NCBI GenBank assembly: GCA_030685015.1
Contig: JAUXWS010000002.1
Span: 1-23,438 of the forward strand
DNA: 23,438 nucleotides
Reading direction: 5' to 3'
Source: a bacterium
Lineage (GTDB): Bacteria; CAIWAD01
The notes beneath the pieces were generated by a model that searched no databases, was not told the DNA's origin, and saw only the letters and a program-made list of their open reading frames with translations. Below are positions 1 through 20,863 of this stretch, one piece after another (within the stretch, counting starts at the first letter, position 1; the number at the start of each line of letters is the position of its first letter). Both the position numbers and the translations under genes were made by a program.

Positions 1-134
1 TGCCTATGCCGAGAGAGCAGCATAAACCGGGAGACCCGCAAAGGCCGCCAGCGCCTTGCGCCCCCATGGCACTGCCTGAGCAGACTAGGCGCCGGCGCCA
101 CCACAAACCCAGCCTTCAAAGAGAATGCCAGTCT
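1..134 (-). other. Start of a further cassette, cut by the window edge
   Basis: This stretch lies beyond the outer core site of the first attC and so should be the 5' part of the next cassette. On the minus strand a reading frame opens with ATG at 67 and remains open to the edge for 22 codons. A short plus-strand frame from 7 is also open up to the attC. Neither resembles a family I recognise and there is too little sequence to choose between them, so no coding call is made. Confidence 0.3.
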
Positions 135-261
135 ATATAACGTTGGCTTCAGCCGCGGCGTGCCTGGCGCGGCGCTTGCCTTCGTCCACTTCGAGTCCTT
201 TTCACAACATCCAGCAAGCGGCGTGACAGGCGCAGCCGTCGGCTGCAAGCAGTTGTTAGCC
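135..261 (-). repeat. attC recombination site 1
   Basis: Core sites are GTTAGCC at 255-261 and ATATAAC at 135-141, the latter read as GTTATAT on the minus strand and degenerate against GTTRRRY. The arms are complementary: GGCTTCAGCCG near 144 pairs with CGGCTGCAAGC near 240, leaving one extra base in the right arm. GCTTGC and GCAAGC form an inner pair. The site is almost identical to the one at 1704-1828 except for a few bases, including the central loop. It ends the higBA cassette. Confidence 0.85.
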
Positions 262-275
262 AGTTTCGTCGAGCG

Positions 276-563
276 CTAGCTCAAGGCGGAGGCGACAGCC
301 TTTGGGTTCTTTGCCGCCACTTTGAGTAACGCCATGGCGGGGCCGTCCGGTGTACGCCGGCCCTGTTCCCAATTGCGTAGAGTTGCGACACTTACGCCGA
401 TCATCATAGCAAACTCAACCTGCGACTTACCCAGAGTCAACCGAACATCCTTGATGTCTGCAGGCTTGAAGGCAATGATGCGAGACGGCTTTGATTCACC
501 CCGACGGATTTTACCAGCCTGCTTGACGCTTTCGACGAGATCGTCGAAGTCCCGCTGCTTCAT
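276..563 (-). CDS. higA: HigA-2-like antitoxin, XRE-family helix-turn-helix
   Basis: This is a 95-residue DNA-binding antitoxin that would neutralise the adjacent HigB-like toxin and repress the operon. An XRE helix-turn-helix occupies residues about 38-90, with the recognition region around SVATLRNWEQGRRTPDGPA. The N-terminal 35 residues fit the toxin-binding extension of the HigA-2/NadS-like group. The start ATG at 563 overlaps the toxin's TGA stop as ATGA, so the two are translationally coupled in toxin-first order, typical of higBA loci. The pair fills one integron cassette, followed by attC at 135-261. The known relative higBA-2 of Vibrio cholerae is also an integron cassette. Family assignment is strong; the exact subfamily name is inferred. 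Confidence 0.88.
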   Translation of the reverse strand: MKQRDFDDLVESVKQAGKIRRGESKPSRIIAFKPADIKDVRLTLGKSQVEFAMMIGVSVATLRNWEQGRRTPDGPAMALLKVAAKNPKAVASALS

Positions 564-877
564 TTGAATTCCTCTCTGACCAAACGACTCAGAATTCGGA
601 GCTGTTCTGGTGTCAGGTCTTCCTGTTCGTTCTTTGCATACGCCAAAAGCATGTAGAATGCTGTTTGCTCTTTGTCCCAGAAGTAGATGATCCGTAGGCC
701 ACCGCTCCTACCACGACCGGATCCACCCCAACGAATCTTGCGAAGCCCGCCAGATCCCTGAATGAGGGCGCCTTGCTCTGGCCGAAGTATCAGAGCCATC
801 TGCAAGGTCCGGTAATCCTCATCAGGGACAAGGGCTTTGACCAGCCGGGTGAAGATCGGCGTTTCTACGAATCGCAT
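560..877 (-). CDS. higB: HigB-2-like toxin, RelE/ParE superfamily mRNA interferase
   Basis: This 105-residue protein closely follows the V. cholerae HigB-2 pattern. It has an N-terminal VETPIFTRLV, then a central IQGSGGLRKIRW, a basic glycine-rich stretch GGSGRGRSGG, and the core strand LRIIYFW followed by YMLLAYAKNEQEDLTPEQ. Relatives cleave mRNA on the translating ribosome. The gene precedes its antitoxin with a 4-base ATGA overlap. A sigma70-like promoter ends six bases upstream of the start codon and no ribosome-binding site is visible, so the message may be leaderless. Length is normal and no frameshift is seen, so the toxin is probably intact. Confidence 0.9.
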   Translation of the reverse strand: MRFVETPIFTRLVKALVPDEDYRTLQMALILRPEQGALIQGSGGLRKIRWGGSGRGRSGGLRIIYFWDKEQTAFYMLLAYAKNEQEDLTPEQLRILSRLVREEFK

Positions 878-882
878 GGCTC

Positions 883-911
883 ATAGTACGTCATTGGCGT
901 AGCAATGTCAA
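883..911 (-). promoter_or_regulatory. Sigma70-like promoter of the higBA cassette
   Basis: On the minus strand TTGACA (911-906) is separated by 17 bases from TACTAT (888-883). The -35 box is perfect and the -10 matches four of six. Transcription would be expected to start around 877-875, which is exactly the ATG of the toxin gene. The promoter lies inside the cassette, between its outer core site (947-953) and the gene, so the cassette carries its own expression signal. Confidence 0.65.
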
Positions 912-946
912 TGGAAATCTTGTGACCGATGCAGGTTATCCGGTCT

Positions 947-1071
947 GGCTAACGGTGGCTTCAGCCGCGACGCGCCTGGCGCGGCGCTTGCCTTCTCCTA
1001 CCGACGTTTCTTATCCCGTCCGACTGCAAGCGCCGTGACAGGCGCAAAGTCGGCTGCAAGCAGTGTTAGGC
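947..1071 (-). repeat. attC recombination site 2
   Basis: Core sites are GTTAGGC at 1065-1071 and GGCTAAC at 947-953, the latter GTTAGCC on the minus strand. The paired arms around GGCTTCAGCCGCGACGCGCC and AAGTCGGCTGCAAGC match the other two sites. The central loop (about 990-1025) is different in sequence. It ends the DUF4468 cassette and its outer core site starts the higBA cassette. Confidence 0.87.
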
Positions 1072-1110
1072 AACAAGATCGATCAAGCATAATTCTAAAG
1101 CTCATTCATT

Positions 1111-1659
1111 TCACCAATCACTTCCGCCGACTAGCGATGACCTTGTCATAGCAGACTTCAGGTTCTCGATCAGTAGCCTCAATTCTTTATCGCTTCTCTC
1201 TAGAACCTTTTTATATCCTATCATTCCGCGACCATCTTCCATTGGCTTTTCACTTGCTGGGAAAGATGCAACTGAATTTCGAAATAGTGGAAAATGCATT
1301 ACGAAATCAGAAAAGGTATACCGGTATCGGCCCTCCTTGATTTCGATCGTCAGTGTGTGGTAAATATCCAGATCATTCGTGTTCCAATAGTTCTTTGTAA
1401 ATCCCTTTGCAATAATGATCCCCTTTTCTGGATCATCTAGTTGGATTACATCATTCGCACTGCGGTAGGCGTTAGCAATCCAAGACTTGGCTCTTGCATA
1501 AAGCTCATTTTGGCTCAGAGTATCAATCTCAATAACTTCTTGGTAGCAAAACATTCCCTTCCCATCGGCACTTGTTCTAGTGCTATCCCTAGGGATTTCG
1601 GCCAAGCACGACCCAGCATAGAACAGCACGCAAGTTACGATCGTCGTGATTGTCCTCAT
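1111..1659 (-). CDS. Secreted DUF4468-type protein, integron cassette gene
   Basis: A 182-residue protein of unknown function. It opens with a signal peptide (MRTITTIVTCVLFYAGSCLA, cleavage expected after residue 20), so it should be exported. The mature part has the DUF4468 pattern: a first strand around YQEVIEIDTLSQNELYARAKSW, then DDPEKGIIIAKGF, then YHTLTIEIKEGRYRYTFSDF. This fold is common in Bacteroidota periplasmic proteins. The start at 1659 is preferred because GAGG lies five bases upstream and the signal peptide begins there; an in-frame ATG at 1680 would add seven residues including a glutamate. The gene is clearly more AT-rich than the chromosomal genes, is alone in its cassette, and shows no promoter of its own. 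The domain call is from memory of the pattern. Confidence 0.75.
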   Translation of the reverse strand: MRTITTIVTCVLFYAGSCLAEIPRDSTRTSADGKGMFCYQEVIEIDTLSQNELYARAKSWIANAYRSANDVIQLDDPEKGIIIAKGFTKNYWNTNDLDIYHTLTIEIKEGRYRYTFSDFVMHFPLFRNSVASFPASEKPMEDGRGMIGYKKVLERSDKELRLLIENLKSAMTRSSLVGGSDW

Positions 1660-1703
1660 TTGAGCCTCAAGGTTTGTCATTTAGAATTGTCTCCAGCTAG
1701 TTT

Positions 1704-1828
1704 GCCTAACGTTGGCTTCAGCCGCGGCGCGCCTGGCGCGGCGCTTGCCTTCGTCCACTTCGAGTCCTTTTCGCAACATCAGCAAGCGGCGTGACAGGCG
1801 ATGCCGTCGGCTGCAAGCAGAGTTAGCA
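1704..1828 (-). repeat. attC recombination site 3
   Basis: Core sites are GTTAGCA at 1822-1828 and GCCTAAC at 1704-1710 (GTTAGGC on the minus strand). Arms and central loop are nearly identical to site 1 (135-261), with only a handful of substitutions or single-base indels. It ends the vapBC cassette. Confidence 0.87.
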
Positions 1829-1837
1829 AGCCATTAG

Positions 1838-2197
1838 CTATTCATTGACTAATCCAAGACCCTCAGCAGCACGAACAAGCGCTTTATCATAAGTCCAGAG
1901 CCGACATCCTGTCAATTGAGCTGAAGCAAGGAGATTGATATCGATCCATCCCAGCCCCAACCCAAAAAGCTTTCTTGATTCCATGAACTGGATCGTCTCA
2001 TCGTATTCAGTAATACGTGCCTGCGGTAATGTAGAAAGGAGACCCAGGATCTCTAGGCGATTGCTGAGGTTACCACATGCAAGCTCAGCAAAAACGAGAG
2101 GGTGATGGAGAACCAACCCCGCGTTGAGCAACTGCACAAGTTGATCATTCACTCTACGAAGGTGATCAATCCAAACAGATGTATCGACCAGCGTCAT
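1838..2197 (-). CDS. vapC: VapC toxin, PIN-domain ribonuclease
   Basis: A 119-residue PIN-domain protein. The acidic residues that bind the catalytic metal are all present: D5 in LVDTSVWIDHLRR, E38 in FAELACG, D86 in GWIDINLLASA and D104 in WTYDKAL. VapC toxins cut tRNA or rRNA and are held inactive by VapB. The start ATG at 2197 overlaps the vapB stop as ATGA, so antitoxin and toxin are coupled in antitoxin-first order. The gene sits directly before attC site 3, making vapBC one cassette. Length is at the lower end of normal and the active site is complete, so it is probably functional. Confidence 0.92.
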   Translation of the reverse strand: MTLVDTSVWIDHLRRVNDQLVQLLNAGLVLHHPLVFAELACGNLSNRLEILGLLSTLPQARITEYDETIQFMESRKLFGLGLGWIDINLLASAQLTGCRLWTYDKALVRAAEGLGLVNE

Positions 2198-2394
2198 TGA
2201 ATGGCTTCGGAGCGTCGGCGCGGAATGATCTGAAGATTCTTCTCAGATCCACCAAGCAAGGCAAGTCGACGGGCGCTCTCAAGCGCGATGAGCGCTTCAA
2301 GACCCAACCTGATGAGCGAAGTCTTTTCGGAAATGCCGGTGAGCTTCGAGGCCTGGCTTAGAAGCTGGTCGTCGATATTCAGTGTAGTTCTCAT
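2194..2394 (-). CDS. vapB: VapB antitoxin, ribbon-helix-helix type
   Basis: A 66-residue antitoxin of the pfam09957-like VapB group. The N-terminal strand RTTLNIDDQLL starts a ribbon-helix-helix fold, followed by the conserved TGISEKTSLIRLGLEALIALE helix pair and a LALLGGSE segment. The basic tail IIPRRRSEAIQ should wrap the toxin. It is expected to neutralise VapC and to repress its own promoter. That promoter (2402-2430) ends eight bases before the start codon, with no ribosome-binding site between, suggesting a leaderless or nearly leaderless message. The stop overlaps the vapC start by four bases. Confidence 0.9.
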   Translation of the reverse strand: MRTTLNIDDQLLSQASKLTGISEKTSLIRLGLEALIALESARRLALLGGSEKNLQIIPRRRSEAIQ

Positions 2395-2445: not shown

Positions 2446-2452
2446 TGCCAAC
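2446..2452 (-). other. Possible outer core site of the vapBC cassette
   Basis: On the minus strand this reads GTTGGCA, close to the GTTAGCA core of attC site 3. If it is the recombination point, the vapBC cassette is about 742 bases and its promoter lies entirely inside. No palindromic attC arms lie further right, so this would be an attI remnant or a secondary insertion site in the chromosome. Confidence 0.35.
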
Positions 2453-12223: not shown

Positions 12224-14107
12224 ATGGAACAGCACAACAACAAGCTACGCTGGATCATTTTCGGCGTCATCCTGGCCCTCGCCCTTTGGAAACTGTATCC
12301 GACCATCCGTTTGTCGATGATCGGGGACGACAGACTGAAGGCCATGGATGCCAATGCCCAGGTCGAGCTTCGGCAAAAGGCCATCAAGCGCGGCCTGGAC
12401 TTGCAGGGCGGCATGCACATGGTCCTCGAAGTGGACCTCGTCGAGTTGGCCAAGGGCTTGGCCCGCACGCCCGATGCCCGCTTCGCGGAGCGCTTGAACC
12501 GGGTGGCGGCGAAGCTGGACGCCAGCACGGATTTCTGGCAGATATTCGAACAGGAGTTTTCCGACGTCCAACTGAGCGAATACTACGGGGAGCGCCGACA
12601 GTCCAACTCCGAGATTCTTGCGATCCTCAAGCAGCAATCCGTCGATGCCATCGACAACTCCCTGGTCATCCTGCGCAACCGCGTGGACGGCTCGGGACTG
12701 CAGGAACCCTCCATCACCAAGCAGGGCCAGCGCCGCATCGTGGTGGAGCTGGCCGGCGTGAGCGATCCCGAGGCGGCCCGCCGCATGATTGGCCGCACGG
12801 CCCTCCTCGAGTTCAAGATGGTGGAGGAGGTCACCCGCACCAACCAGGTCCTGGAGGCGGTCAACGGCGCCGTCAAAGGCGAGCTGCCCGTCCTGCCGGA
12901 CAGCGCCCTGGCCCAGGCCGCACCTGTGGACACGGCTGCGGTGGCGGCCGAAGTCGCCCAGGTCGCGGCGGACGATCCCGACAGCGAGGTCTTCGATCCC
13001 CTGGCTGCGCGCACAGAGCAGGAGTCCGCCACCACCCCCGGCAGCCAGGCCAGCACCTTCTTCGAGCTGCTCACGGTCTTCCCGGGCCGCAACAGCGTGC
13101 TCGTTGCCGAGGCCAACCGCGAACGCGTTCTGGCCGTGCTTGCACAACCCGCCGTGCAGGCCGTCATCCCGCCCGACAAGCAATTCATCCTGGGCAAGCT
13201 GGAGGACCTGGGCGGCCAAAAGTTCTCGGAGTTGTTCCTGGTTCACCGCGAGGCTGAACTGACGGGCAAGGCCCTGGAAAACGCCGGTGTCAACATCAAC
13301 CAGGGCGGCCAGGGCGTCAACGCCGGCGCCGCCATTGTCGAGATGTCCATGACGAGGGACGGCGCCCGCCGCTTCGCCCGCATCACGGGCGACAACGTGG
13401 GCCGGCGCCTGGCCATCGTGCTGGACAACCGCGTCTTCATGGCGCCCAACATCCGCAGCAAGATCCCCAATGGCCGCGCCATCATCGAGGGTCTCGAAAG
13501 CATCGAGGAGGCCAAGGAGCTGGCCAACCTCCTCAAGCACGGCGCCCTGCCCTCCACCGTCAAGTCGGTGGAGGAACGCACCGTGGGTCCCAGCCTGGGC
13601 AGCGAGAGCCTGCGCCAGGGAGCGTTCTCCGCAGCGCTCGCCTTCCTCTTCACCACCCTTTTCATGCTGGTCTACTACAAGAAGTCCGGCATCAATGCCG
13701 TGGCCGCCCTGGTCGCCAACATGATCTTCATGATGGCCGCGCTGGCGGGCTTCCACGCCACCTTGACCCTGCCCGGCATCGCCGGCATCGTGCTCACCAT
13801 CGGCATGGCGGTGGACGCCAACATCCTCATCCTGGAGCGCATCCGGGAGGAGCTGAAGCGCGGACGGACCGTGCGCGCCGCCGTGGACGCGGGTTACTCC
13901 AATGCCCTGTCCGCCATCGTGGACTCCAACGTCACCACCCTGATTGCCGGCGTGGTGCTCTACCAGTTCGGATCGGGACCCATCCGCGGCTTCGCCTTGA
14001 CCCTCATGATCGGCATCGCGGCGAACCTGTACACGGCCATCTTCCTGACCCGTCTGCTCTTCGATCGCTTCACCAATTACGACCGCGCCACGCGGCTGAG
14101 CATCTGA
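12224..14107 (+). CDS. secD: Protein translocase subunit SecD
   Basis: About 627 residues. With SecF it forms the RND-type complex that uses the proton gradient to pull secreted proteins across the inner membrane. Transmembrane helix 1 (about 9-25) is followed by LYPTIR and the conserved GLDLQGGMHMVLEVD. The large periplasmic P1 region includes LRNRVDGSGLQEPSITKQG and a low-complexity Ala/Glu/Asp insert (about 225-290). The C-terminal five helices begin near LPSTVKSVEERTVGPSLG and contain GMAVDANILILERIREELKRG. Start choice is open: ATG at 12224 fits family N-termini with AAGGAG 12 bases upstream; ATG at 12203 or TTG at 12179 are alternatives. No yajC is seen upstream. Confidence 0.95.
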   Translation: MEQHNNKLRWIIFGVILALALWKLYPTIRLSMIGDDRLKAMDANAQVELRQKAIKRGLDLQGGMHMVLEVDLVELAKGLARTPDARFAERLNRVAAKLDASTDFWQIFEQEFSDVQLSEYYGERRQSNSEILAILKQQSVDAIDNSLVILRNRVDGSGLQEPSITKQGQRRIVVELAGVSDPEAARRMIGRTALLEFKMVEEVTRTNQVLEAVNGAVKGELPVLPDSALAQAAPVDTAAVAAEVAQVAADDPDSEVFDPLAARTEQESATTPGSQASTFFELLTVFPGRNSVLVAEANRERVLAVLAQPAVQAVIPPDKQFILGKLEDLGGQKFSELFLVHREAELTGKALENAGVNINQGGQGVNAGAAIVEMSMTRDGARRFARITGDNVGRRLAIVLDNRVFMAPNIRSKIPNGRAIIEGLESIEEAKELANLLKHGALPSTVKSVEERTVGPSLGSESLRQGAFSAALAFLFTTLFMLVYYKKSGINAVAALVANMIFMMAALAGFHATLTLPGIAGIVLTIGMAVDANILILERIREELKRGRTVRAAVDAGYSNALSAIVDSNVTTLIAGVVLYQFGSGPIRGFALTLMIGIAANLYTAIFLTRLLFDRFTNYDRATRLSI

Positions 14108-14116
14108 GGTTGCGCC

Positions 14117-15031
14117 ATGCTTGAGTTCTTCTCGACGCCCAACATCGATTTCGTCGGCAAGCGCAAGATCTGGATCACGATCTCGCTGATCCTGCTGGTG
14201 ATCAGCCTGCTGCTGGCCATCTTCCGCGGCTACAACAAGACGATCGATTTCACCGGCGGTCTGGAGCTGCAATACCGCTTCAACGGCCCCATGACGGAGG
14301 GACAGCTGCGCGGCGCCCTGTCCGCGGGCGGCCTGGAGGCGGAGGTGACCACCCTGCGCTCGGAGGATCTGGCCCACCCCGACTGGATGGTCAAGCTGCA
14401 GACGGCGGATGCGGAAACCGTGCGCTCCCTGGTCGACGCCGCCTTCGCCAGCGCCTTTCCCGGCAACGCCTTCGAGCTGCGTTCCATGCACAACATCGGG
14501 CCGCGGGTGGGCAAGGAGCTGACCCGGGCGGCCATCTGGTCCACCATCTGGGTCTCCATCCTGCTTGTCATCTACGTCAGCGTGCGTTTCGAGTTCATCT
14601 ATTCAGTGGGCGCCATCGTGGCCACGCTGCACGACGTCTTCGTCGTCCTGCTCTTCTTCAGCCTCTTCGGCCTCCAATTCAGCTTGGCCGTGCTGGCCGC
14701 CATCCTCACCCTGGTGGGCTACTCCATCAACGACACGATCGTCGTCTACGACCGCATCCGGGAACAAGTGAAGAAGCAGCGGGGAGCGCCCTACACCAAG
14801 GTGGTCAACGACGCCATCAACCAGACCTTGAGCCGCACCGTGCTGACAGGAGCCACCACCATCATCTCGGTGGTCATCCTCATCTTTTTCGGCGGCCAGA
14901 CCTTGACGACGATGGCGGTGGCCCTGCTCATCGGAGTCCTCACCGGCACCTACTCGTCCGTGTTCATCGCAGCCCCCATCCTGATCGAATGGCATGACCG
15001 GCGCGCCGCCAAGCTGGCCCTGAGCAAATGA
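14117..15031 (+). CDS. secF: Protein translocase subunit SecF
   Basis: 304 residues, normal length. After FSTPNIDFVGKRKIW comes helix 1, then the family motif TIDFTGGLELQYRF, a periplasmic domain to about residue 125, and the five-helix C-terminal domain from GPRVGKELTRAA onward. VGYSINDTIVVYDRIRE holds the conserved acidic residue pair of the proton pathway, and INQTLSRTVLTGATTI is also typical. It starts nine bases after the secD stop, so the two are co-transcribed, and a terminator follows. Confidence 0.96.
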   Translation: MLEFFSTPNIDFVGKRKIWITISLILLVISLLLAIFRGYNKTIDFTGGLELQYRFNGPMTEGQLRGALSAGGLEAEVTTLRSEDLAHPDWMVKLQTADAETVRSLVDAAFASAFPGNAFELRSMHNIGPRVGKELTRAAIWSTIWVSILLVIYVSVRFEFIYSVGAIVATLHDVFVVLLFFSLFGLQFSLAVLAAILTLVGYSINDTIVVYDRIREQVKKQRGAPYTKVVNDAINQTLSRTVLTGATTIISVVILIFFGGQTLTTMAVALLIGVLTGTYSSVFIAAPILIEWHDRRAAKLALSK

Positions 15032-15082
15032 GCGCCCCCCGGACGGCGGCGCGTCCGGGCCCGGGAGATCCGCATCCATCTG

Positions 15083-15112
15083 GGCTCCGGTTGCCGCCGG
15101 AGCCTTTTTCTT
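15083..15112 (+). terminator. Rho-independent terminator between secF and purA
   Basis: GGCTCCGG (15083-15090) pairs with CCGGAGCC (15097-15104) across six bases and is followed by TTTTTCTT. The T tail ends only about ten bases before the purA start, with the purA ribosome site GAGGAAG in between. Confidence 0.85.
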
Positions 15113-15122
15113 CGAGGAAGGC

Positions 15123-16406
15123 ATGCCCGTCACCGTCTTGATCGGCGCCCAGTGGGGCGATGAGGGCAAGGGCAAGATCATCGACGCCCTGGCGCCCGGC
15201 CTGCAGATGGTGGTCCGCTACCAGGGCGGTCCCAACGCCGGCCACACGGTGATCGCCGATGGCCGGCGCATCGTCCTGCATCAGGTCCCCACCGGCATCC
15301 TCCACACCAGCGTGTCCTGCCTGATCAGCCCCGGCGTCCTGCTCGACCCCTGGGAGTTGCTGGACGAGCTGGCCATGCTGGCCGCTCAGGGCGTGGACCT
15401 GGACCGCCTGCGCGTCTCACCCTCCTGCCACCTCATCATGCCCTGGCACCGCCGCCTGGACCGGGCCCGCGAGGCGGCCCTGGACTCCACGGGCGGCGCC
15501 ATCGGCACCACCGGGCGCGGCATGGGTCCCTGCGCCATGGACAAGGCCGGCCGCCGGGGCGTGCGCCTGGGGGACCTGCTGGATCCGGCCCGTCGCGGCC
15601 AGGTGGCCGCCGGCCTGGAGCGCGCCAACGCCGAGTTGGCGACCCTCGGCGCCGAGCCGCTGCCCCGCGCCGAAGTGGATGCAGCCTGCGCCCAGGCCGC
15701 CCTGGGATTGGCTCCCTTCGTGGCGGACACCCAGGTCCTTCTGCACGAGGTCCTGCAACGAGGCGGCCGGGTGCTGATGGAAGGCGCCCAGGGCGCCATG
15801 CTGGATCTGGACTGGGGGACCTACCCCTATGTCACATCCACCCATCCTTCGGCGGGCGGGGCCTGCACGGGCGGCGGCGTGCCCCTGCGCCAGATCGACC
15901 AGGTGATCGGCATCTGCAAAGTCTACGCCACCCGCGTGGGCAACGGCCCCTTTCCCACCGAGTTCCCCCCCGGCCCCTTCGCCGACGCCTTCCGCACCCA
16001 GGCCGGCGAGTTCGGCGCCACCACCGGACGTCCCCGCCGCTGCGGCTGGTTCGACGCGGTGGCCGCCCGCTACGCCTGCCGCCTCAACGGGTTCACGGAG
16101 CTGGCCCTGACCAAGCTGGACGTGCTGGACGGTCAGGAGGAGGTGCGCGCCGCGGTGGCTTATGAGCTGGAGGGCCGGCGCCACGACGAGATGCCGGAGG
16201 ATCTGCGCCGCCTCGAATCCGGCGTCACGCCGGTGTGGCAAGGTTTTCCTGGCTGGACGGACAGCGCCGCAGCCGGCGCTTGGGACGAGCTGCCCTCCCC
16301 GGCACGACGCTACTTGGCCTGGCTGGAGGAGGATCTGGCCACTCCCATCGGCTGGGTCTCCAACGGTCCCGACCGCCGCCAGCTGATCCGTCGACCCGGC
16401 GCCTGA
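15123..16406 (+). CDS. purA: Adenylosuccinate synthetase
   Basis: 427 residues, standard length. It joins IMP and aspartate with GTP in the first committed step to AMP. The N-terminal loop WGDEGKGK carries catalytic D13 and NAGHT carries catalytic H41. Other motifs are GTTGRGMGP, MEGAQGAMLDLDWGTYPYVTSTHP, TTGRPRRCGWFD, TKLDVLDG and the guanine-binding SNGPDR at the end. MGPCAMDK replaces the more common GPAYxDK, a small variation. GAGGAAG gives the start at 15123, just after the secDF terminator. With no room for a promoter between terminator and start, transcription must come from inside secF or from read-through. It heads a run of six closely spaced genes. Confidence 0.95.
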   Translation: MPVTVLIGAQWGDEGKGKIIDALAPGLQMVVRYQGGPNAGHTVIADGRRIVLHQVPTGILHTSVSCLISPGVLLDPWELLDELAMLAAQGVDLDRLRVSPSCHLIMPWHRRLDRAREAALDSTGGAIGTTGRGMGPCAMDKAGRRGVRLGDLLDPARRGQVAAGLERANAELATLGAEPLPRAEVDAACAQAALGLAPFVADTQVLLHEVLQRGGRVLMEGAQGAMLDLDWGTYPYVTSTHPSAGGACTGGGVPLRQIDQVIGICKVYATRVGNGPFPTEFPPGPFADAFRTQAGEFGATTGRPRRCGWFDAVAARYACRLNGFTELALTKLDVLDGQEEVRAAVAYELEGRRHDEMPEDLRRLESGVTPVWQGFPGWTDSAAAGAWDELPSPARRYLAWLEEDLATPIGWVSNGPDRRQLIRRPGA

Positions 16407-16425
16407 GCCGTTCCAGGGAACCCAC

Positions 16426-17481
16426 ATGTTCTGGATCTACACGGGCTTCATCGTCTTCGTCGTCGCCATGCTGGTGCTGGACCTGGGCGTCTTCCACCGG
16501 AAGGCCCATGTCATTTCCGTGCGTGAGGCCCTGGGCTGGGCCGCCTTCTGGATCAGTCTCGCCCTCAGCTTCACCGTGTTCATCTACTTCGCCTACGACC
16601 ACCACTGGCAGGGTCTGGGCACCACCATCGACCCGGTGGACGGCCTGCTCAACACGGGCCATCTGGCCAGCATCAAGTACATCACCGGCTACTTGATCGA
16701 AGAGTCCCTCAGCATGGACAACCTCTTCGTCATCGCCTTGATCCTGGGCTTCTTCGCCGTGCCCGCCGTCCTCCAGCACCGCGTCCTCTTCTGGGGCATC
16801 CTGGCCGCCATGGTGTTGCGCGGCCTGATGATCGCCATCGGAGCCGGTCTGGTGGCACGCTTCCACTGGATCCTCTACCTCTTCGGCGCCTTCCTCGTCT
16901 TCACCGGCATCAAGATGCTCCTTGCCAAGGACGAGGAGACGGACCTCGAGTCCAACATCCTGGTGCGCACCGCCCGCCGCTTCTTCCCGGTGAGCACGCG
17001 CTTCTACGGTCAGCACTTCATGGTGCGGGCCGGCTCCCCCGAGGCGGCGCTGCCGGTCTGCGGTGGCGCGGACCCGGTGATGGCGGCGGCCAAAACGGGG
17101 GCCTTGGTCCTCACGCCCCTGGCCCTGGCCCTCATCGTGGTGGAGGCGGCGGACGTGGTCTTCGCCGTGGACTCCATCCCGGCCATCTTCGCCATCACGG
17201 CCGATCCCTTCCTCGTCTTCACCAGCAACATCTTCGCCATCCTGGGGCTGCGCAGCCTCTTCTTCGCCCTGGCCGGCATGCTGCGCACCTTCCGTTACCT
17301 GAGAGTCTCGCTCTCCCTCGTCCTTACCTTGGTGGGCGTCAAGATGCTGGCCGCCCACTGGCTGCGGGATCTGCTGGGCAGCCACTTCAATCTCTATCTT
17401 CTGGGCGCCGTCCTGCTCATCCTGGCGGGCGGCGTGATCGCCTCGCTGCTGGTGCGACAGCCGGCCGGCGACGAATCCTGA
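16426..17481 (+). CDS. TerC-family integral membrane protein
   Basis: 351 residues with about eight or nine hydrophobic helices. The two family signatures are present: LIEESLSMDNLFVIALI (about 89-105) and the repeat VVEAADVVFAVDSIPAIFAIT followed by PFLVFTSNIFAILGLRSLFF (about 240-285). The conserved acidic residues in these helices are thought to bind metal ions. Members have been linked to tellurite resistance, manganese export and metal loading of exported enzymes; which applies here is not known. It begins 19 bases after purA and is probably in the same operon. Confidence 0.92.
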   Translation: MFWIYTGFIVFVVAMLVLDLGVFHRKAHVISVREALGWAAFWISLALSFTVFIYFAYDHHWQGLGTTIDPVDGLLNTGHLASIKYITGYLIEESLSMDNLFVIALILGFFAVPAVLQHRVLFWGILAAMVLRGLMIAIGAGLVARFHWILYLFGAFLVFTGIKMLLAKDEETDLESNILVRTARRFFPVSTRFYGQHFMVRAGSPEAALPVCGGADPVMAAAKTGALVLTPLALALIVVEAADVVFAVDSIPAIFAITADPFLVFTSNIFAILGLRSLFFALAGMLRTFRYLRVSLSLVLTLVGVKMLAAHWLRDLLGSHFNLYLLGAVLLILAGGVIASLLVRQPAGDES

Positions 17482-19309: not shown

Positions 19310-20863
19310 ATGTCACGACGAGTGTTGTGGGCGGACGACGAGATCGACCTGCTGCGGCCGCACATTCTCATCCTGGAGCGGCAGGGCTACGAGGTGGCGG
19401 GCGTCACCAACGGCATGGACGCCCTGGAACGGGTCCGCCAGGAGCGCTGGGATCTCGTCCTCCTGGACGAGATGATGCCGGGCATGACCGGGCTGGACAC
19501 GCTGAAAGAGATCAAGAAGCTGGACGCGGCACTGCCCTGCGTCATGGTCACCAAGAGCGAATCCGAATCCCTCATGGACCAGGCCATCGGCCGCCAGATC
19601 GACGATTACCTGACCAAGCCGGTCAATCCCAGCCAGATCATCGCCGTCTGCAAGCGGATCATCGACCGTCAGCGTCTCACCGGCCGCAACTTGAGCGAGA
19701 GCTACATGCAAGGCCTCGCCGGCATCGGCCGGACGCTGGCCCTGGGGGCGGGCTGGCGGGAATTCCAGGACTTCCATCAGCAACTCTGCGCCTGGGACCT
19801 GGAGCTGGACGAGCGCCCCGAGCTGGGCTTCGGCCAGACCCTCCTCGACCAGCGGCGGGAATGCAACCGCGAGTTCTCCCGGCTGGTGGAGCGCGAATAC
19901 CTGGACTGGATCAACGGCTCCGGCGGCCCCATGATGAGTCCCTCCGTCGTCAAGCAGGTGGTGGTGCCCCTGCTGCGCGAAGAGCGCCCCGTCCTCTTCT
20001 GCGTGATCGACTGCATGCGGATGGACCATTGGATGGTGCTGGAGAAAACCCTGCGCGAGAAATTCCGCGTGCGCCGGGAGGTGCAGGTCTCCATCCTGCC
20101 CAGCGCCACGCCCTATGCGCGGAACGCCATTTTCGCCGGCATGTACCCGGCGGACATCGCCAAGACCCATGCCGAGTTCTGGGAGCGCAACATGGACGAC
20201 GAGGGCAACACCAACCGCCACGAGCGGCAGTTCCTCGACCACCAACTGCGCCTCAACGGACTGGAGTTCAAGCCCGCCCACAAGTACATCAAGGTCATCG
20301 ACCTGGCCGAGGCGGGCGACACGTTGAAAAAGGTGGACAACCTCTTCAACCACCGCTTCGTCAGCATGGTGTGGAACTTCGTGGACATCCTGGCCCACAG
20401 CCGCAACCAGAACGACATCGTGCGGGAGATGGTGCCGGACGAGGCTGCCTACCGCAGCGTCGTCTCCGCCTGGTTCCGCCACAGCGCCCTCAACCAGATC
20501 CTCGAGGCTTTCCGCGAGAAGGGCTACACCATCGTCATCACCAGCGACCACGGCTCGGTGCGCGTCCAGCGTGGCGCCCGCATCTACAGCGACCGCGACG
20601 CCACCCGCGGCGTGCGTTGGAAGCTGGGCCGCAACCTGCGACTGGAGGACGACCGCAGCGGCATTTTCGTGGACAAGCCGGAGAAATGGCGGCTGCCCCA
20701 CGGCAAGATCAGCGAGACGATGGCCTTCGCCACCGAGGATCACATGTTCCTCTACGGCAACAACTACAACCAGTACCTGGCCCAGTTCAAGGACAGCTTC
20801 CAGCACGGCGGCATTTCCATGGAGGAGATGATCCTGCCCGTTGCGGTGTTGGAGCCGCGATGA
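19310..20863 (+). CDS. porX: PorX-type response regulator with PglZ/alkaline-phosphatase domain
   Basis: 517 residues. The receiver domain (1-120) has D9/D10, phospho-acceptor D53 in LLDEMMPGMTGL and K103 in LTKPVNP. A helical linker leads to a PglZ domain of the alkaline-phosphatase superfamily (about 220-517) with FCVIDCMRMDHW, the nucleophile region LPSATPYARNAIFAG (T267), TSDHGSVRV (D413, H414) and the closing HGGISMEEMILP. In Porphyromonas and Flavobacterium, PorX controls the type IX secretion system and hydrolyses oligonucleotides. The same architecture here suggests a comparable envelope or secretion signalling role. No PorY kinase is in the window. GGAG seven bases upstream fixes the start. 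Confidence 0.93.
   Translation: MSRRVLWADDEIDLLRPHILILERQGYEVAGVTNGMDALERVRQERWDLVLLDEMMPGMTGLDTLKEIKKLDAALPCVMVTKSESESLMDQAIGRQIDDYLTKPVNPSQIIAVCKRIIDRQRLTGRNLSESYMQGLAGIGRTLALGAGWREFQDFHQQLCAWDLELDERPELGFGQTLLDQRRECNREFSRLVEREYLDWINGSGGPMMSPSVVKQVVVPLLREERPVLFCVIDCMRMDHWMVLEKTLREKFRVRREVQVSILPSATPYARNAIFAGMYPADIAKTHAEFWERNMDDEGNTNRHERQFLDHQLRLNGLEFKPAHKYIKVIDLAEAGDTLKKVDNLFNHRFVSMVWNFVDILAHSRNQNDIVREMVPDEAAYRSVVSAWFRHSALNQILEAFREKGYTIVITSDHGSVRVQRGARIYSDRDATRGVRWKLGRNLRLEDDRSGIFVDKPEKWRLPHGKISETMAFATEDHMFLYGNNYNQYLAQFKDSFQHGGISMEEMILPVAVLEPR

Follow-up and report, generated by a model that had tools for sequence, protein, structure and literature searches.

An integron integrase, IntI, excises gene cassettes and inserts them at attC hairpins and at the primary site attI. 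In the integrons of Treponema an atypical layout has been described, in which intI is transcribed towards attI and the cassettes read in the same direction (PMC3607928). Cassettes encoding toxin-antitoxin (TA) pairs can stabilise arrays by killing the cells that lose them, as is known from Vibrio (PMC11023631). For clusters of attC sites without an adjoining integrase gene (CALINs), the origins listed include rearrangement and the off-target insertion of cassettes by a remote IntI (PMC8618304), and draft assemblies are known to inflate the number of such calls (PMC9024848). The window considered here, the whole stretch of 23,438 nucleotides that was analysed, is contig C2 of a draft bacterial assembly of many contigs (3.6 Mb, 105 contigs, contamination 0.35%), and it carries at its left end a series of minus-strand cassettes that an initial annotation had described as an orphan array. 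The reading favoured here, with a probability of roughly 0.86, is that this is a block of integron cassettes in a genome whose integron system is complete and reverse in type. The genome was compared with two congeners, G001 and G002, and with a further genome of the same taxonomic family, G003.

On the minus strand, three repeats in direct orientation, each about 125 nt long and spaced 812 and 757 nt apart, occupy positions 134-262 (attC c), 946-1072 (attC b) and 1703-1829 (attC a), and each is backed by box order, fold and a covariance model. Read on that strand, every repeat runs through R'' (GCTAAC or CCTAAC), L'' with its one extra base (TTGCAGCCGA), the arms and loop, L' (CGGCTGAA) and R' (GTTAGGC, GTTAGCC or GTTATAT), which is the order of an attC site. 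The covariance model, built from the sites on contigs C58 and C102 and in G001 with those of the window left out, recovered precisely these three across the 23 kb, at 148.9, 96.4 and 90.7 bits, the next match scoring 13.8. As single-stranded DNA the bottom strands (the plus strand of the window) reach folding energies of -37.7 to -41.1 kcal/mol (z between -4.6 and -5.6); none of 200 shuffles folded as well, and the top strands fold less well (z -1.4 to -2.7), as would be expected of sites that are recombined as bottom-strand hairpins. Sites a and c are 92% identical and each is about 80% identical to b. Searching the window against Rfam gave no match at gathering scores, and a generic attC finder written for the analysis was too strict, missing most true sites, including those of the window. 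The repeats are integron attC sites separating cassettes in one direction; their number, orientation and size, and the near identity of two of them, had been read correctly in the initial annotation, as had the cassette sizes.

Between consecutive sites lies one ORF or one TA pair, in cassettes of 757 and 812 nt, and all of the genes are on the minus strand. The first cassette encodes a VapB antitoxin (2194-2394; PF09957, 56.5 bits) and a VapC-like PIN toxin (1838-2197; PF01850) with a near copy at C102:166-522; the second encodes a DUF4468 protein of 189 aa (1111-1680; PF14730, 70.7 bits); and the third encodes a NadS-like HTH antitoxin (276-563; HTH_3, and NF041265 with 67.4 bits against a cut-off of 60) and a RelE-like toxin (560-877; PF06296, 31.3 bits against a cut-off of 27), which bears out the earlier claim that two of the three complete cassettes are TA pairs. 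A fourth cassette, referred to below as X, begins in positions 1-141 (minus strand) and is cut by the contig end, which falls 133 bases beyond the last attC and thus inside the array. For the first cassette the probable start is G|TTGGCA (2452/2451, within 2450-2452, minus strand), a boundary placed from the sequence only, where the core is non-canonical and not GTTRRRY.

To the right the array gives way to chromosome. The flank consists of mrp, a SprT-like gene, and a 41-aa peptide gene (2559-2684) with a terminator-like hairpin (about 2475-2507), the latter two spanning 2475-2684 on the minus strand, and it is syntenic in G001 and G002. The chromosomal setting proposed for these cassettes holds. 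Homology to the congeners ends at 2483, and neither G001 nor G002 has an attC at the equivalent site. In the array's place G001 carries an ORF (C24, L150 from about 4850) that begins METVFGIDLGTNSLGWAAI and is Cas9-like by eye, and G002 carries genes that by eye are TetR and TolC-like; the spot behind the hairpin seems to be a variable site. Farther along, at 19310-20863, the window encodes a 517-aa response regulator that may be akin to PorX, the PglZ-domain protein of the type IX secretion system in Bacteroidota.

A search of the rest of the assembly for intI found one, on contig C96. It encodes a full-length IntI (TIGR02249, 471.9 bits against a cut-off of 265, positions 2-314 of 315) and is the sole match above that cut-off in the genome, the remaining tyrosine recombinases giving only partial matches. 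The protein aligns from end to end with the solved integron integrase of Vibrio cholerae, 2a3v (E 4e-88), has the catalytic HxxR, H and Y motifs, and contains the stretch peculiar to IntI. The statement that no integrase is present is therefore true of C2 alone and fails for the assembly. Behind the gene lies a candidate attI motif, CAGACTGT-N9/10-GTTA, which occurs once each in this genome, G001 and G003, always no more than 165 bases 3' of the intI stop; the remainder of the scanned loci does not contain it, and neither do the window or the other arrays, which were likewise searched. The G001 contig stops right at the crossover spot of this region, which is taken as attI on the strength of its conserved sequence. 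Assignment of C96 to this genome rests on the assembly binning and on the likeness of its IntI and attI to those of congeners, which speaks against misbinning: the IntI encoded there branches as sister to the G001 protein, and the attI motif is common to G001 and G003.

On C96 attI lies 3' of intI and the cassettes run in the direction of intI, and attC sites behind the 3' end of intI also occur in G003 and in loci from Spirochaetes, Cyanobium, Nitrospira, Rokubacteria, Acidobacteria and others. A tree calculated from 85 IntI proteins has a single branch (support 96/85) that splits 12 reverse from 8 classic cases, the orientation labels having come from the strict generic finder together with hits of the covariance model built on the sites of this genome and its congener, so that unlabelled rows are to be read as unknown and not as negative. 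The C96 and G001 proteins are sisters (support 92/96), and that of G003 groups with cyanobacterial ones. The C96 integron is of the reverse type, as in Treponema, in keeping with the IntI tree. The side on which an integrase had been expected, and missed, presupposed the classic layout, which does not apply to this clade, where cassettes lie 3' of intI.

An intI above the family cut-off is present in all three of the other family genomes compared (four of four with the present one), and its neighbours differ among this genome, G001 and G003, DNA likeness being confined to intI itself. The gene is thus not found at one locus through the lineage, as it would be in a sedentary chromosomal integron; since, moreover, the G003 protein groups with cyanobacterial ones, the term sedentary is doubtful in its strict sense. 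The intI of G002 (C206, L132:1200-2000) is divergent, with an end branch of 1.43 and tRNA-like genes within about 130 bases behind it; no attI motif was found behind that gene, and the G002 integron may be decaying.

The array and the integrase contig meet in a shared sequence. The first 141 bases of C2 are identical to C96:1-141, and the two sequences diverge at base 142. On the minus strand the break coincides exactly with a G|TT crossover and immediately precedes the G of a GTTATAT, which on C2 is the R' of the third attC (c) and on C96 closes the stretch that follows the intI stop. Cassette X follows attI on C96 and attC c on C2, with the same breakpoint. Contigs of this assembly overlap by 141 bases (the last 141 of C96 are C95:1-141 reversed), so that a shared start of that length marks a fork in the assembly graph. 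A contig with the remainder of X is absent from the bin, and a search for it in viral contigs found nothing. Cassette X either exists twice or is arranged in two ways within the population. The contig taken by itself would score as a CALIN, with neither intI nor attI beside the array, but the contig ends inside the array, and the label of orphan array is not supported at the level of the genome, where the attI of the IntI precedes a cassette start identical to the one that follows the third attC.

The same junction decides against a dispersed palindromic element unrelated to integrons, which the initial annotation had itself raised and which is now very improbable. Strong palindromes do recur on several contigs, as such an element would have it; yet the boxes are ordered as in attC, direction is uniform within each array, one ORF or TA pair stands between sites, the model that gave three strong hits in the window also matches sites behind intI in other lineages, and the G|TT junction of attC c is common with attI, which rules this candidate out.

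How the fork arose bears on two further readings. Two strains may have been assembled together, with X after attI in one and after attC c in the other, through rearrangement or through excision and re-insertion by IntI. A draft assembly that forks exactly at the crossover, its many contigs and a contamination of 0.35%, compatible with near-identical strains, agree with this. In a mixture, however, attI should have two successors, and C96 should end at attI and not 141 bases into X, unless one strain were rare; a single successor is what is seen behind attI, and we hold this reading to be possible but rather doubtful. A single successor is as expected if X is present twice, as it would be were the block a true CALIN, standing alone at the mrp locus, where a rearrangement or an attG-like off-target insertion had placed it. 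Such a CALIN would still fall under the favoured reading, differing in the lack of a physical link to intI, and IntI may act on it in trans. It draws on the run from vapBC to the mrp flank, where neither intI nor attI was found between the cassette and the right-hand chromosomal genes, on the lack of attC at this site in both congeners, on further arrays without intI on C58 and C102, and on a published list of CALIN origins that includes rearrangement as well as off-target insertion by an IntI at a distance (PMC8618304). Against it, the far side of X is unseen and a link to intI through a rearranged chromosome is possible, and we give it even odds. The favoured reading too has points against it: the contig with the remainder of X is missing from the bin, the first cassette boundary departs from the canonical core, and the array start adjoins old chromosome without attI, so that more is involved than a run of C96 integron cassettes next to attI. 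A start of this kind fits off-target insertion or rearrangement.

Within the favoured reading, that of cassettes belonging to a complete reverse-type system, the C96 IntI would act on bottom-strand attC sites folded into hairpins, cutting cassettes out and placing them, with crossover at G|TT, after attI or after another attC; it is presumably active and would have assembled the C2 block, which may then have reached the mrp flank by one of the two routes just named. What the analysis establishes is the attC sites, the integrase gene, the conserved attI and a single recombinant junction, whereas the direction and timing of these movements are inferred.

A search for more copies of the attC site elsewhere in the genome, as the initial annotation had suggested, brought the total to about 12 good sites, with remnants, over several contigs. 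Six are on C58, where an insertion sequence has shortened one of them; of the two on C102 one is degraded, and C100 has a single site; C63, C79 and C83 hold remnants. G001 has four sites and G002 one. Across arrays the sites are closely alike, at about 74-92% pairwise identity, which agrees with the uniformity first noted. A second vapBC cassette stands on C102, and between window positions 1704-2362 and that copy (L035:1-661) the genes are 95% identical but the attC only 80% (Fisher p 2e-7); by contrast, attC a and c, on different cassettes of the window, are 92% identical. Such a pattern suggests that attC sites are exchanged or homogenised within an array. If vapBC is truly duplicated in one cell, TA protection would be weaker for this pair. 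A more tentative proposal, which we consider unlikely though worth stating, is that one reverse-type IntI serves several separate arrays in trans, starts new ones at sites like the mrp flank and copies cassettes between them (X at attI and on C2, vapBC on C2 and C102), attC sites becoming alike within arrays.

An IS110-family transposase gene on C58 (L033:7454-8692; NF033542, 205 bits) abuts an attC end, as does a truncated copy of the element on C100 (L034:7628-8025), and both stand after the same end sequence, GAGACCTCTATGA; the element resembles the attC-targeting IS1111 group, which includes ISKpn4 and ISPst6 (PMC11187229). Among the C58 cassettes, two have matches to candidate defence families (TIR-type PDC-S35, and PDC-S64), and an OLD-like ATPase gene lies directly before the array; these three genes are at L033:10619-11548, 13164-14066 and 14841-16904.

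The kind of system is already known, and the present array adds a member to it from a little-studied lineage with few genomes available, in which a reverse-orientation integron with an attI identified from sequence is documented here. It also offers a natural case of one cassette start occurring in two settings, next to attI and in an array that no integrase adjoins, and it illustrates how orphan arrays called at the level of contigs can mislead in draft genomes.

Among described systems, CALINs share with this locus at least two attC sites and no intI beside the array on C2, but here the genome has an IntI, and the cassette start with which the array ends also follows the attI of that IntI. 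The sedentary integrons of Vibrio and Xanthomonas likewise have long, mutually similar attC sites and TA cassettes and are chromosomal; their intI is of the classic layout, whereas here it is reverse, its neighbourhood differs between congeners, and the arrays as seen are short. The chromosomal integrons of the Treponema denticola type (PMC3607928) agree in an intI directed towards attI, cassettes along intI, many similar attC sites and a place of their IntI on the same side of the tree; this system differs in its lineage, in attC sequence, and in having arrays over several contigs instead of one array.
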